45,368 nucleotides of DNA from an uncultured Opitutaceae bacterium (GTDB lineage: Bacteria; Verrucomicrobiota; Verrucomicrobiia; Opitutales; Opitutaceae), in contig CAIXHE010000147.1 of the NCBI GenBank assembly GCA_903919205.1, positions 1 to 45,368 on the forward strand. Direction: 5' to 3'. Shown here piece by piece: positions 11,094 through 15,633 of the stretch. The notes beneath the pieces were generated by a model. It was not told the origin of the DNA, did no database searches, and was given only the letters and a program-made list of their open reading frames with translations. The stretch's first letter is position 1, and each line of letters opens with the position of its first letter. The position numbers and the translations under genes were made by a program.

Positions 11094-13169
11094 ATGAAAG
11101 CCGCCGTCCTTGCAGCCGTCGGGCTGCTCTCCCCCTTGACGACCCTGGCCCAGGCCCCCGAAGACCCCTACCTCTGGCTCGAGGACGTGAACGGCGAGCG
11201 CGCCCTCTCCTGGGTGCGCGAGCAGGACCGCCGCTCGCAGGGCGAGCTCGAGGCCCGGCCGGGATACGCGGCGCTGCGCGCGCGCCTGCTGTCGATCTAC
11301 GACTCGACCGAGCGGATCCCCTACGTCGGGAAGGCCGGCCCCTACTACTACAACTTCTGGCAGGACGCCGCGCACGTGCGCGGCGTCTGGCGGCGCACGA
11401 GCCCCGGGGAGTACCGGAAGAAGGACCCCGTGTGGGAGACCGTGATCGACCTGGACCGGCTGGGCGCCGACGAGAAGGAGCCCTGGGTCTGGGAGGGCGC
11501 TGAGATCCGCTACCCCGACTACACCCGGGCGCTCGTCAGCCTCTCGCGGGGCGGCGGCGACGCGGTCGTCGTGCGGGAGTTCGACCTGGTGGCGAAGAGC
11601 TTCGTGAAGGACGGCTTCACGCTGCCCGAGGCCAAGTCGCGGATCTCGTGGCGCGGGAGGGACAGCGTGTACGTGGGGACGGACTTCGGGCCGGGCTCGC
11701 TCACCGACTCGGGCTACCCGCGCATCGTCAAGCGCTGGGAGCGCGGCACGCCGCTCTCGGCGGCCGCCCCGGTGCTCGAGGGCGCGAAGGCCGACGTCTC
11801 GGTGTTGGCCTTCGCGAGCGACGAGCCGGACTTCCACCGGGAGTTCGCGCAGCGCGCGCTCACCTTCTTCACCGCGGAGCACTACCTGGTCGTCGACGGC
11901 CGCCTCGTGCGCCTCGACATCCCGGCCGACGCCGGCGTGGGCACCTTCCGCGAGTACGCGCTCGTCACGCTGCGCGGCGCCTGGAAGGCCGGCGGACGCG
12001 AGTACGCCGCGGGCTCGCTGCTGGCGCTCCCGTGGGACGCCTTCCTTGCGGGAAGGCGGGACTTCGCGGTGCTCTTCGCGCCCCGGCCCCGGGTGGCGCT
12101 CGACTCGGTCTCCACCCTCAGGAACGTCATCATCGTCAACGAGCTCGATAACGTGCGCAACCGCCTCTACGTGCTCTCGCCCGGCAGGGACGGCGCCTGG
12201 TCGCGCACCCCGCTGCCGGCCCCGGAGTTCGGGTCGGTGTCGGCCACCGCGGTCGAGGCCGAGTCGGACGACTACTTCCTCGACGTCACCGACTTCCTGA
12301 CGCCGTCCACCCTCTACCTGGGCCGCGTCGGCGGGCCGGCGCGCACGCTTCTCAAGCAGAGCCCCGTGTTCTTCAGCGCGGAGGGCCTCGAGGTCTCGCA
12401 GCACGAGTCGGTGTCCAGGGATGGCACGCGCATCCCCTACTTCCAGGTCTCGAGGAAGGGCCCGGTGCTCGACGGCTCCCACCCGACCGTGCTCGACGGC
12501 TACGGCGGCTTCGAGGTCTCGATGACCCCCTATTACAGCGGCGGCATCGGCGCCGCCTGGCTCGAGGAGGGGGGCGTCTACATCCTCGCCAACATCCGCG
12601 GGGGCGGGGAGTTCGGGCCGGACTGGCACGCGGCGGGCATCAAGGAGAACCGCCAGCGCGTCTATGACGACTTCATCTCGGTGGCCGAGGACCTCGAGGC
12701 GCGCAAGGTGACGTCGCCCAGGCACCTCGGGATCGTCGGCGGCAGCAACGGCGGCCTGCTGATGGGCGTCATGCTCACCCAGCGCCCGGAGCTCTTCGGG
12801 GCCATCGTGTGCCAGGTGCCGCTCCTCGACATGAAGCGCTACAGCCACCTGCTCGCCGGCGCCAGCTGGATGGGCGAGTACGGCAACCCCGACGTCCCCG
12901 GGGAATGGGCCTACATCAGCAAGTACTCGCCCTACCAGAACGTGCGCGCGGACGCCGTCTACCCGCGGGTGCTCTTCGAGACCTCGACGGCGGACGACCG
13001 GGTGCACCCGGGCCACGCGCGCAAGATGGCGGCGCGGATGCTCGAGCAGCACCACGACATCCTCTTCTACGAGAACACCGAGGGCGGCCACGCGGCCGGC
13101 GCCAACAACGCCCAGCGGGCGACCTTCTGGGCGATGGCGTTCACGTTCTTCAGGCAACAGCTGCGTTAG
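11094..13169 (+). CDS. Exported prolyl oligopeptidase family (S9A) peptidase
   Basis: A 691-residue serine peptidase with a signal peptide (residues 1-19, 'LTTLAQA' cleavage region). An N-terminal seven-bladed propeller (about 60-420) gates a C-terminal alpha/beta-hydrolase domain. Catalytic residues are S551 in 'GGSNGG', an Asp at 634/635 in 'TADDRVHPG' and H666 in 'EGGHAAG'. The 'EDPYLWLEDV' opening is a hallmark of the family. It cleaves short peptides, usually after Pro. Its stop lies 12 bp before the Lgt-like gene, so it may head a four-gene operon, although its biochemistry has no obvious tie to the lipid-like genes that follow. Confidence 0.93.
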   Translation: MKAAVLAAVGLLSPLTTLAQAPEDPYLWLEDVNGERALSWVREQDRRSQGELEARPGYAALRARLLSIYDSTERIPYVGKAGPYYYNFWQDAAHVRGVWRRTSPGEYRKKDPVWETVIDLDRLGADEKEPWVWEGAEIRYPDYTRALVSLSRGGGDAVVVREFDLVAKSFVKDGFTLPEAKSRISWRGRDSVYVGTDFGPGSLTDSGYPRIVKRWERGTPLSAAAPVLEGAKADVSVLAFASDEPDFHREFAQRALTFFTAEHYLVVDGRLVRLDIPADAGVGTFREYALVTLRGAWKAGGREYAAGSLLALPWDAFLAGRRDFAVLFAPRPRVALDSVSTLRNVIIVNELDNVRNRLYVLSPGRDGAWSRTPLPAPEFGSVSATAVEAESDDYFLDVTDFLTPSTLYLGRVGGPARTLLKQSPVFFSAEGLEVSQHESVSRDGTRIPYFQVSRKGPVLDGSHPTVLDGYGGFEVSMTPYYSGGIGAAWLEEGGVYILANIRGGGEFGPDWHAAGIKENRQRVYDDFISVAEDLEARKVTSPRHLGIVGGSNGGLLMGVMLTQRPELFGAIVCQVPLLDMKRYSHLLAGASWMGEYGNPDVPGEWAYISKYSPYQNVRADAVYPRVLFETSTADDRVHPGHARKMAARMLEQHHDILFYENTEGGHAAGANNAQRATFWAMAFTFFRQQLR

Positions 13170-13181
13170 CGCCCGCGCGCC

Positions 13182-13949
13182 GTGACCTTCCCGGCCTACA
13201 TCGAGCTGCCCGGGCTGCGGGTGCACCCCCACCTGCTCATGGAGACCGTGGCCTACGCGGCCGGGGCCCGCCTCTACTTCGCGAGGCTTCCCCGGGAGAC
13301 GCCCGGCGGCCCGGACCTGGAGAGCCGACTGTGGATCCTGGTCGGGTGCGTCTTCGGGGCCCTCCTGGGCTCCAAGCTCCTCGCCTGGGCCGAGGCGCCG
13401 CTCTACTACCGCTCGCTGCCGCCCGGGGTCCTCTCGGCCCTCGGCGGCAAGACGATCGTCGGCGGCCTCCTGGGCGGATGGGCGGGGGTCGAGGTGGCCA
13501 AGCGCTGCACCGGCGTCGCGGCCTCGACCGGCGACGCCTTTGTCCTCCCGCTCGCGGTCGGCATCGCGATCGGCCGGGTGGGGTGCTTCCTCACCGGCCT
13601 CTCGGACCGCACCTACGGGGTCGCCACCGCGCTGCCGTGGGGGGTGGACTTCGGCGACGGGGTCGCCCGGCACCCGACCCAGCTCTACGAGTGCGCGGCC
13701 GTGCTCCTCCTCGGGGCCTCGGTCGAGGCCGCGCGCCGGAGGGCCGGCCCGCGCTGGCCCGCGGGGCGGGCCTTCCGCGTCTTCATCGCCGGCTACCTCG
13801 CCTTCCGGGTCGCCGTCGAGTGCATCAAGCCCCGCGAGCTCCTGCTCGGGCCCCTGAGCGCAATTCAACTCGCGTCGGCCGCCGGCCTGCTGTGGTGTCT
13901 CGTGTCGCTCCGACCATGCCCGACCGGCCCTATCTCTACGCCGAGCTGA
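13182..13949 (+). CDS. Lgt-like membrane protein lacking canonical catalytic residues
   Basis: A 255-residue polytopic membrane protein homologous to prolipoprotein diacylglyceryl transferase (Lgt), with matching motifs: 'GGKTIVGGLLGG' (90s), 'GRVGCFLTGL' (131-140) and 'RHPTQLYE' (163-170). In true Lgt the central motif is GRxGNFxNGE. Here the key Asn is Cys, the second Asn is Thr and the Glu is Leu, and the His of the 'HGG' loop is Val. It is therefore unlikely to be a standard Lgt and may act on another lipid substrate. The start is a GTG 12 bp after the peptidase stop. Its last 34 bases overlap the radical SAM gene, a sign of tight coupling. Confidence 0.82.
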   Translation: MTFPAYIELPGLRVHPHLLMETVAYAAGARLYFARLPRETPGGPDLESRLWILVGCVFGALLGSKLLAWAEAPLYYRSLPPGVLSALGGKTIVGGLLGGWAGVEVAKRCTGVAASTGDAFVLPLAVGIAIGRVGCFLTGLSDRTYGVATALPWGVDFGDGVARHPTQLYECAAVLLLGASVEAARRRAGPRWPAGRAFRVFIAGYLAFRVAVECIKPRELLLGPLSAIQLASAAGLLWCLVSLRPCPTGPISTPS

Positions 13950-15319
13950 CCGGCTCGCTGTGCTCGTCCTGCCTGCGCAAGGTCGAGGCCAAGGTGGTCC
14001 TCCAGGACGGAGGCGTGTACCTGCACAAGCGCTGCCCGGAGCACGGCGCGGAGCGGGTGCTGGTCTCGACCGACATCGACTACTGGAATTTGACGCGGCG
14101 CTTCCTCAAGCCCGGCCAGATGCCGCGGGTCTTCAACACGCCGATCGAGCACGGATGCCCCTTCGACTGCGGGCTGTGCGCCGACCACGAGCAGCATTCC
14201 TGCCTCGCGATCGTCGAGATCACCGACGCCTGCAACCTCTCGTGCCCGGTCTGCTACGCCGAGAGCTCCCCGCAGCGCCAGACCTACCGCACCCTGGCGC
14301 AGGTCGAGTCGATGCTGGACGCGGTGGTGCGCAACGAGGGAGAGCCCGACATCGTGCAGATCAGCGGGGGCGAGCCGACGCTCCACCCGGAGTTCTTCGC
14401 GATCCTGGACGCGGCGCGCCGCCGGCCGATCAAGCACCTGATGGTGAACACGAACGGCCTAAGGATCGCGCAGGACGCCGACTTCGCCAGGCGGCTCGCC
14501 TCCTACGCCCCGGCCTTCGAGATCTACCTCCAGTTCGACTCGCTGCGCCCCGAGGTGCACCGGGTGCTGCGCGGGGCGGACCTCACCTCGGTGCGCCGCC
14601 GCGCGCTCGAGCGCCTGAACGAGCTGAACCTCTCGACGACGCTCGTCTGCACGCTCAAGAAGGGCCTCAACGACGGCGAGCTCGGCGGGATCATCGACTT
14701 CGCGCTCGGCCAGCGCTGCGTGCGCGGGGTCACCTTCCAGCCGGTCCAGCACGCCGGGCGCGCGGAGGGCTTCGACCCGGCCCGCGACCGCCTGACGCTG
14801 GCCGAGGTGCGCACGCGCATCCTCGAGCAGAGCCCCGTCTTCAAGCCCGACGACCTGATCCCGGTGCCGTGCCATCCGGATTGCCTCGCCATGGGCTATG
14901 CGCTCAAGATGGCCGGCAAGGTGACGCCGCTGACCGGCCTGATCCCCAGGGACACGCTCCTCGCCGCGGAGGGCAGCACGATCGTCTACGAGCGCGATCC
15001 CAGGCTGCGGGCGGCGGTCTTCAACCTCTTCTCCACGCACCACTCGCCTTCCAGCGGCGCGGAAGCCTTCCGCGAGCTGCTCTGCTGCCTGCCCCGCGTC
15101 CTCGCCCCGCCCGCGCTCACCTACGACAACCTCTTCCGCGTGCTGATCGTGCAGTTCCTGGACGCCCACAACTTCGACGTGCGCAGCGTGAAGAAGAGCT
15201 GCATCCACATCGTCCACCCCGACGGCCGCCTGATCCCCTTCGACACCTACACCCTCTTCTACCGCGACGGCCGCGAGGACGCCTGGCGCTCGGCCGTCGC
15301 GAGGACCGCCGGGCGATGA
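13916..15319 (+). CDS. Radical SAM protein of the Tes/MJ0619 type
   Basis: A 467-residue iron-sulfur enzyme. The radical SAM cluster is C106-x3-C110-x2-C113 ('DACNLSCPVCYAE'), followed by 'SGGEPTLHP' (about 150). A second CX3CX2C lies just before it at C81, C85, C88, with C96. An N-terminal C16-x2-C19 plus C40 resembles a rubredoxin-like iron site. Further Cys are C319, C323, C390/391 and C429 in 'KKSCIHIVHPDG'. This set is characteristic of the archaeal MJ0619 and tetraether synthase (Tes) family, which acts on unactivated alkyl carbons or on pterin precursors. The start ATG lies inside the Lgt-like gene; its stop overlaps the next ATG by four bases. Substrate is unknown; a lipid is my inference from the neighbour. 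Confidence 0.88.
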   Translation: MPDRPYLYAELTGSLCSSCLRKVEAKVVLQDGGVYLHKRCPEHGAERVLVSTDIDYWNLTRRFLKPGQMPRVFNTPIEHGCPFDCGLCADHEQHSCLAIVEITDACNLSCPVCYAESSPQRQTYRTLAQVESMLDAVVRNEGEPDIVQISGGEPTLHPEFFAILDAARRRPIKHLMVNTNGLRIAQDADFARRLASYAPAFEIYLQFDSLRPEVHRVLRGADLTSVRRRALERLNELNLSTTLVCTLKKGLNDGELGGIIDFALGQRCVRGVTFQPVQHAGRAEGFDPARDRLTLAEVRTRILEQSPVFKPDDLIPVPCHPDCLAMGYALKMAGKVTPLTGLIPRDTLLAAEGSTIVYERDPRLRAAVFNLFSTHHSPSSGAEAFRELLCCLPRVLAPPALTYDNLFRVLIVQFLDAHNFDVRSVKKSCIHIVHPDGRLIPFDTYTLFYRDGREDAWRSAVARTAGR

Positions 15320-15633
15320 GCGACCCGTCCCCGCCCCCCCTGCTCCAGCCGCCGGCGCCCAGGAAGCGCGAATGGAGGGCCGTCGCCGCGGGCGCCGCGA
15401 CCGCCGTCGTGCTCGGGCTCGTGTGGCTCTTCCTGCTCAGCCGTCCCCGGTTCAGCCGGGCGATCGGCACCCCGTTGGCGCTCGTCGTGTCGTCCGCCCC
15501 CGTGGCCACGATCCTGCTCCTGATCCCCAAGCGGACGCGCATGTTCGCCCTGGGGATGCTGCTCGCCGTGGGCGCGGCGCTCCTCATATGCCTGGCCATC
15601 TGCGGGGGCGCCCTCCTGCACAGCCTAAAGTAG
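15316..15633 (+). CDS. Small three-helix membrane protein
   Basis: A 105-residue protein with a Pro-rich cytosolic start ('PSPPPLLQPPAPRKR') and three hydrophobic segments (about 23-42, 52-70, 77-100), separated by basic loops ('SRPRFSR', 'IPKRTR'). I recognise no family. It begins in an ATGA overlap with the radical SAM stop codon, so translation is probably coupled. The context suggests a membrane partner or anchor for the Lgt-like and radical SAM proteins; this is inference only. Confidence 0.78.
   Translation: MSDPSPPPLLQPPAPRKREWRAVAAGAATAVVLGLVWLFLLSRPRFSRAIGTPLALVVSSAPVATILLLIPKRTRMFALGMLLAVGAALLICLAICGGALLHSLK

Follow-up and report, generated by a model that had tools for sequence, protein, structure and literature searches.

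The window analysed here is a 45,368-nucleotide stretch of DNA from an uncultured Opitutaceae bacterium, namely contig C147 of a 3.26-Mb draft genome (G000; 87.7% complete). It carries three overlapping genes, which encode a membrane protein related to the prolipoprotein diacylglyceryl transferase Lgt, a radical S-adenosylmethionine (SAM) enzyme resembling the archaeal tetraether synthase Tes, and a small membrane protein with a conserved Cys at its predicted outer face (Table 1). Overlaps of 34 bp between the first two genes and of 4 bp (ATGA) between the last two had been noted in an earlier interpretation made from the DNA letters alone (the sequence-only reading), and both coordinates and overlaps hold. 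As described below, the trio is a real and widespread cassette of variants of known enzyme families together with an unclassified outer-Cys membrane protein, and it almost certainly works as one functional unit. Papers are cited by PMC number.

Table 1. Coordinates of the three genes and of selected sites within them, numbered along the window.
Feature	Position	Strand	Remarks
Lgt-like integral membrane protein gene, 255 aa	13182..13949	+	GTG start, TGA stop
Tes-like radical SAM enzyme gene, 467 aa	13916..15319	+	ATG start, TGA stop
Rubredoxin-like site C16-X2-C19-X20-C40-X2-H43	13961..14044	+	invariant in 45/45 rows; spacing equals C9/C12/C33/H36 of GDGT-MAS (PMC9433317)
N-terminal auxiliary [4Fe-4S] site C81, C85, C88 and a His, probably H91	14156..14188	+	45/45 rows; aligns with C73/C77/C80 and a His of GDGT-MAS
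Radical SAM CX3CX2C motif C106/C110/C113	14231..14254	+	invariant in alignment
C-terminal auxiliary-cluster region with C319, C390, C391, C429 (putative cluster ligands)	14870..15202	+	each in 45/45 rows
Small membrane protein gene, 105 aa, three hydrophobic segments, predicted outer-Cys type	15316..15633	+	ATG start, TAG stop
Codon of conserved Cys (C96)	15601..15603	+	end of last hydrophobic segment, 9 residues before C-terminus

By sequence, the radical SAM protein is closest in the PDB to M. jannaschii GDGT-MAS (7TOL; E 4e-64). Its AlphaFold model (predicted local distance difference test score, pLDDT, 83.7; residues 351–396 of low confidence) matches 7TOL over the full length (template modelling (TM) scores 0.82/0.78, E 6.8e-38, 28% identity in the structural alignment) and thus has the overall fold of GDGT-MAS; other proteins among the 50 structural matches listed reach a query TM score of at most 0.43. 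The Cys residues to which the sequence-only reading had drawn attention, in two CX3CX2C motifs and a possible rubredoxin-like site, are all in place: Cys16, 19, 40, 81, 85, 88, 106, 110 and 113 are invariant in the 45 rows of the alignment used for residue conservation, and His43 is, as in Tes, a further ligand of the rubredoxin-like metal site. The CX2CX20CX2H rubredoxin site, the N-terminal CX3CX2C with its His and the radical SAM CX3CX2C motif of Tes are complete in 45 of 45 rows. Gln268 and Arg275 of the GDGT-MAS SAM site align with the invariant Q275 and R282, and Ser271 is replaced by Q278. C323 is kept in 35 of 45 rows.

The protein contains the Pfam domains PF04055 and PF23545. Its earlier description as a Tes/MJ0619-type enzyme stands as regards the Tes fold (TM 0.82), but the protein falls into a clade of its own and membership in the Tes family was rejected, the NCBIfam Tes model (NF045702) giving 275.5 bits against a curated cut-off of 450 (280–298 bits for the radical SAM proteins of loci L012, L018 and L069). 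The best-scoring NCBIfam model is TrsS (NF045646), which is matched over almost its full length at 324.4 bits; with a cut-off of 490 bits, membership in this family was rejected too. A tree of 52 rows places the window protein with those of 44 Lgt-linked loci and that of Persicobacter in a clade of 46 (99/97), separate from Tes and from haloarchaeal, Mycolicibacterium and actinobacterial relatives; because of long branches, the deep order of this tree is unsafe. The sequence-only reading had listed Tes and MJ0619 with different activities, a link to pterin methylation being given for the latter. MJ0619, GDGT-MAS and Tes are, however, one enzyme, and its authors were unable to corroborate the pterin-methylase proposal (PMC9433317), which was rejected here on that account. 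The radical SAM enzyme probably acts on alkyl chains.

The Lgt-like protein matches Pfam LGT (PF01790) at 84.8 bits (7.5e-24; gathering cut-off 24.9), and its AlphaFold model (pLDDT 90.7) has a single PDB match at E ≤ 0.001, E. coli Lgt (5AZB; E 2.1e-6, TM 0.62/0.56), in agreement with its earlier identification as an Lgt homologue. Structure prediction, which the sequence-only reading had proposed as a check, returned the Tes fold for one enzyme and the Lgt fold for the other. R143 and R239, which hold the lipid head group in E. coli Lgt, are kept as R132 and R209, and C135 is invariant across an alignment of 44 rows. Canonical Lgt membership was rejected, since TIGR00544 (Lgt) gives 25.6 bits against a curated cut-off of 118.9 and the essential residues Y26, H103, R143, N146 and R239 (G154 left out) are not all present. 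A search of 16 genomes with the Pfam model found an ordinary Lgt in each of the 15 besides the window's (best match 204.8–227.3 bits), accompanied in G032 and G035 by a protein of the divergent type (95.4 and 86.8 bits); in the window's genome, a draft of the completeness given above, the divergent protein alone was found (84.5 bits). With an ordinary Lgt in those 15 genomes and both types in two of them, the housekeeping role was rejected for the Lgt-like gene, whose product is a diverged paralogue of prolipoprotein diacylglyceryl transferase.

That the third gene encodes a small membrane protein had been recognised; overlooked at that stage, and new in this analysis, was a conserved Cys predicted to lie at the outer end of a hydrophobic segment. 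The protein has no match above curated cut-off in Pfam or NCBIfam. Across loci, its counterparts vary in length and N-terminus and have in common a Cys ending a hydrophobic segment, typically in the motif LLLx[AG][AIL]C[FG]G with 2–15 residues after the Cys (44 tails, hand-chosen to limit redundancy). Those of Bacillota and Verrucomicrobiota mostly have three hydrophobic segments and some in Planctomycetota a Zn-ribbon-like N-terminus (by eye), and in several Paenibacillus the gene lies upstream of the Lgt gene and encodes a zinc-finger-like N-terminus with one segment; the sole such Paenibacillus scanned (L083) matches PF00643 at 25.9 bits (cut-off 24.1). The 44 tails hold 88 Lys/Arg in their first 14 residues and 15 after the Cys, from which, by the positive-inside rule, an outer position of the Cys is predicted. 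MYXO-CTERM proteins have a Cys before the helix and an Arg-rich C-terminal tail; this assignment was rejected, as the Cys ends the segment and so few Lys/Arg follow it. In four loci the gene occurs in two or three tandem copies (L012:12214-13755, L003:2907-3569, L008:11397-12011 and L114:3086-3944).

A scan of GTDB genome contigs, with open reading frames (ORFs) called by length and without a gene finder, yielded at least 574 relatives of the radical SAM protein. The best 80 of these, two further relatives (L003 and L004) and the window make up the 83 loci considered here; left out were L001, which is the window itself, and L002, L005, L006 and L007, which are weaker. Closest among the matches listed are L008 (Verrucomicrobia label, 81% protein identity) and L009 (Opitutaceae label, 76%), which makes a host from the Verrucomicrobia likely. 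In 82 of the 83 loci the radical SAM gene has an Lgt-like gene close by on its own strand: the computed distance is at most 400 nt in 72 and 0.47–2.3 kb in 8, and the window and L009 are counted as linked too, their radical SAM ORF starts having been called too far upstream. In the remaining locus, L014, no Lgt-like gene occurs before the contig end. A gene-neighbourhood check of the pair had been suggested by the sequence-only reading, whose lipid hypothesis was to fall if the pair proved not to be conserved or if the radical SAM protein grouped with non-lipid enzymes of known substrate; neither is the case, since the pair is conserved and the fold of the radical SAM protein is that of Tes.

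Of the 83 loci, 78 contain the third gene, a count made partly by eye; the Cys is close to the C-terminus in 75 and ends the first helix in three acidobacterial loci (L047, L065, L077). For the former group a script had counted 72, from which inspection by eye removed L072 (spurious) and moved L077, and to which it added the window, L014, L027, L042 and L080. As a control, such an ORF is contained in 60 of 2722 random 410-nt start windows from the same loci (2.2%); a fair background is several per cent, because the flanks of the trio were searched over about threefold greater length and with a looser limit on Cys position. No wider operon emerged: among the 60 largest ORF clusters listed, out-of-frame ORFs over the trio left out, none besides the trio recurs at one set position in more than 8 loci.

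According to their record labels, the carriers include members of Verrucomicrobiota, Bacillota, Planctomycetota, Acidobacteriota, Cyanobacteriota, Omnitrophota, Bacteroidota and Pseudomonadota, and one actinomycetotal metagenome-assembled genome (MAG); MAG labels can err. Paenibacillus chitinolyticus NBRC 15660 (L018) and Neobacillus soli NBRC 102451 (L050) are examples of culturable carriers. Radical SAM and Lgt distance matrices correlate at r 0.74 (44 loci), a value reached in 0 of 2000 permutations, with shared host history left in. The radical SAM gene was found at E < 1e-200 in 3 of 57 genomes of relatives and in 2 of 240 genomes of the phylum, the window's included in each count; four more of the 240 have matches at 35–36% identity, and 12 other genomes of the window's genus gave no match at E ≤ 1e-10. 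So patchy a distribution would fit transfer of the cassette as a unit.

Among more distant relatives (32–56% radical SAM identity), the Lgt-like and outer-Cys genes are both present in L092 (Persicobacter), L114 (Mycobacterium branderi, two copies), L115 (Nonomuraea) and three loci of the verrucomicrobial phylum (L121, where about 4.8 kb separate the Lgt-like from the radical SAM gene, L122 and L123). The outer-Cys gene is thereby found in 6 of 7 further Lgt-linked loci, the seventh, L117, ending too soon to judge. L093, L094, L113 and L124 have no Lgt-like gene and a methyltransferase neighbour (annotated in three, by eye in L124), and a convincing outer-Cys gene was seen in none of these four; a candidate in L113 was dismissed by eye for its hydrophilic tail. 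The tally is 84 of 89 Lgt-linked loci, the cut L085 counted as a miss, versus 0 of 4 without an Lgt-like gene (Fisher, 4e-5, a description only, because of the relatedness among the rows and a criterion fixed in part by eye). L116, with its radical SAM frame split and below the score cut, is outside this tally. That the outer-Cys gene tracks the Lgt-like gene is as expected of an enzyme and its substrate, in a small comparison group.

Some features of these relatives may be recorded in their own right. Tes-like genes stand directly before a methyltransferase gene, with no Lgt-like gene, at L093:6971-9339, L094:5971-8134, L113:4001-6111 and L005:1447-3656; the hosts are a Mycolicibacterium plasmid, haloarchaeal plasmids and a relative of the window's family (L005, by eye), and L094 has a low-molecular-weight phosphatase family gene nearby. 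At L117:948-1637 and L118:915-1586 a membrane protein resembling, by eye, isoprenylcysteine carboxyl methyltransferase is encoded between the radical SAM and Lgt-like genes. The haloarchaeal homologue at L116:3863-5358 is apparently split over two reading frames, and G022 has two more distant radical SAM homologues (L006, L007) about 1 kb apart. In the window itself, an upstream ORF, prolyl-oligopeptidase-like by eye, stops at 13169, 12 nt ahead of the Lgt-like GTG; the genes adjoining the trio are, by eye, not methyltransferases, and the window contains no RNA family at gathering threshold.

Given the linkage between the genes, the folds, the conserved residues and Cys motif, and the way the Cys gene goes with the Lgt-like gene, we tentatively favour a dedicated lipid-modification cassette, in which the Lgt-like enzyme would lipidate the outer Cys and the Tes-like enzyme would couple alkyl tails. 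We infer the chemistry, topology, step order and product from these observations. The small protein would insert into the membrane with its conserved Cys at the outer face, the location of the lipobox Cys in ordinary lipoproteins. The Lgt-like enzyme, with its phosphatidylglycerol head-group arginines kept, would move a diacylglyceryl (or similar) group to this Cys; whether it acts there at all we judge to be evenly balanced. At the inner face, the Tes-like enzyme would take hydrogens off alkyl tails and form a C-C bond between two chains, either in the donor lipid or after attachment. The product would be a small membrane protein with a tail-coupled, possibly membrane-spanning or macrocyclic lipid. 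Lgt-type lipidation has been proposed for the MYXO-CTERM Cys (PMC11980579), which serves as a precedent. The unusual lipid or lipid-linked product of the sequence-only reading is thus in keeping with the linkage and the Tes fold, and is extrapolated from them, the Tes cut-off being missed; the conserved Cys, predicted to face outwards, suggests that the product includes a protein carrying a lipid and is more than an unusual free lipid.

Several observations weigh against this cassette model. L024, L029, L030 and L072 lack the third gene, and L085 is truncated where its contig stops. Among 276 other ORFs of the same loci that have a hydrophobic segment at the C-terminus, 102 likewise contain a Cys within their last 16 residues; the Cys alone is therefore not rare, and the evidence lies in its recurrence at one place. 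The lipobox pattern [LVI][ASTVIG][GAS]C fits 4 of 44 tails and not the LAIC of the window, and a lipobox protein was rejected on this basis. In the Lgt-like protein, H103, N146 and Y26, which E. coli Lgt requires (PMC4728403, PMC13251419), are replaced by V93, C135 and H17. H103 and N146 vary among some natural Lgt proteins, and M. smegmatis MSMEG_5408, presumed to be of low activity, has Y26H and N146C as well (PMC13251419). Without His103 and Asn146, the Lgt-like protein may use another acceptor or donor, or it may only bind lipid. In the radical SAM protein, Cys438 of Tes is replaced by Ile (43 of 45 rows) and Cys470 by Asp (45 of 45). Met439 and Tyr459 of Tes, conserved in 1000 archaeal homologues, correspond to V412 and I432, with Met in 27 of 45 rows at the first position and Ile in all 45 at the second; GDGT-MAS variants at both positions still work (PMC9433317).

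The loss from the Lgt-like protein of residues for transfer to Cys is what would be expected if the radical SAM enzyme coupled ordinary phospholipid tails to give diabolic-acid-type membrane-spanning lipids, with the Lgt-like protein presenting or remodelling phosphatidylglycerol and the small protein serving only as a membrane subunit to dock the enzyme. We consider this possible, if on the unlikely side. It agrees with the Tes fold and metal-site ligands, with the two bacterial phospholipids bound in GDGT-MAS made in E. coli (PMC9433317), and with the proposal that bacterial Tes homologues, including one of 32% identity in Edaphobacter aggregans, make branched tetraether lipids (PMC8941075). 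Iso-diabolic acid is made by Acidobacteria subdivisions 1, 3, 4 and 6 (PMC13274423), and 8 of 45 radical SAM alignment rows have acidobacterial labels. A free lipid does not, however, account for an outer-Cys gene that tracks the Lgt-like gene and not the radical SAM gene, and many carriers are Bacillus and Paenibacillus relatives. Such relatives are not known to make diabolic-acid lipids, which we count against this explanation. Homologues of Mss and Ger are reported from one species of Bacillaceae and five of Paenibacillaceae (PMC13274423).

The freely varying N-termini of the small proteins and their tandem copies in L003, L008, L012 and L114 recall precursor peptides, and the radical SAM enzyme could instead act on the small protein, perhaps close to the Cys, as in the maturation of ribosomally synthesised and post-translationally modified peptides (RiPPs), with the Lgt-like protein acting later or as an export helper. 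Lipoprotein/RiPP hybrids exist (PMC12636315), and RiPP maturases such as SuiB and SkfB follow in the list of structural matches; their query TM scores of at most 0.43 among those 50 matches compare with 0.82 for Tes, and the Cys is predicted on the outer face, far from a cytosolic enzyme, which makes this explanation improbable. Most improbable is non-lipid chemistry of the TrsS type (methylation or metalloid, for example) with the other two proteins as membrane partners, for which speak the top NCBIfam score (324.4 bits) and the methyltransferases adjoining other radical SAM relatives, and against which stand the missed 490-bit cut-off and the window's trio, which adjoins no methyltransferases (by eye) and has an Lgt partner in that place.

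Tes authors left open the role of bacterial homologues in organisms not known for such lipids (PMC9433317, PMC8941075): Zeng et al. list 456 bacterial Tes homologues and suggest branched tetraether synthesis (PMC8941075), and Lloyd et al. note bacterial homologues in organisms not known for biphytanyl chains (PMC9433317). The accessible text of both, supplements excluded, names no Lgt partner, and no description of the trio came up in an open-licence library of papers. With their constant Lgt-like and outer-Cys partners, one group of these homologues now has a concrete answer that can be tested. If the cassette model is true, lipoprotein chemistry would meet sp3 C-C lipid coupling in culturable soil bacteria, and wherever producers of branched tetraether lipids are deduced from numbers of 'bacterial Tes' genes, this group would have to be kept separate. 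The cassette might even define an undescribed class, small membrane proteins lipidated at an outer Cys by a dedicated Lgt paralogue and carrying tails that a Tes-like enzyme would join by C-C bonds into a protein-bound membrane-spanning or macrocyclic lipid, which we regard as doubtful at present.

Among known systems, Tes/GDGT-MAS shares with the window enzyme the whole fold, the rubredoxin-like site, the N-terminal auxiliary cluster site, the radical SAM motif and the C-terminal Cys region; the window enzyme differs in its C-terminal domain, which is shorter, has C390/C391 and lacks Tyr459, Cys438 and Cys470, in its Lgt-like and outer-Cys partners, and in its 28% identity and score below the curated cut-off. 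TrsS, a radical SAM (seleno)protein listed in a selenoprotein table (PMC13188914), is matched by NF045646 almost over its full length, and 324 bits versus a cut-off of 490 set the window enzyme apart. The Lgt-like protein has the fold of Lgt, the equivalents of Arg143 and Arg239 and an RHP-QLYE motif, with Val, Cys and His in place of His103, Asn146 and Tyr26. MYXO-CTERM likewise has a conserved Cys beside a C-terminal transmembrane helix for which Lgt-like lipidation is proposed, but there the Cys precedes the helix and its Arg-rich tail, whereas that of the small protein is at the far helix end. DAG-RiPPs (PMC12636315) also combine a small gene product and a metalloenzyme with Lgt-type lipidation, using an N-terminal lipobox, an MNIO enzyme and the general lipoprotein pathway instead. 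Mss, the bacterial membrane-spanning lipid synthase of Thermotoga and Clostridia, resembles the proposed system, by description only, in coupling fatty-acid tails, and Mss models are reported to retain the catalytic architecture of Tes (PMC13274423).

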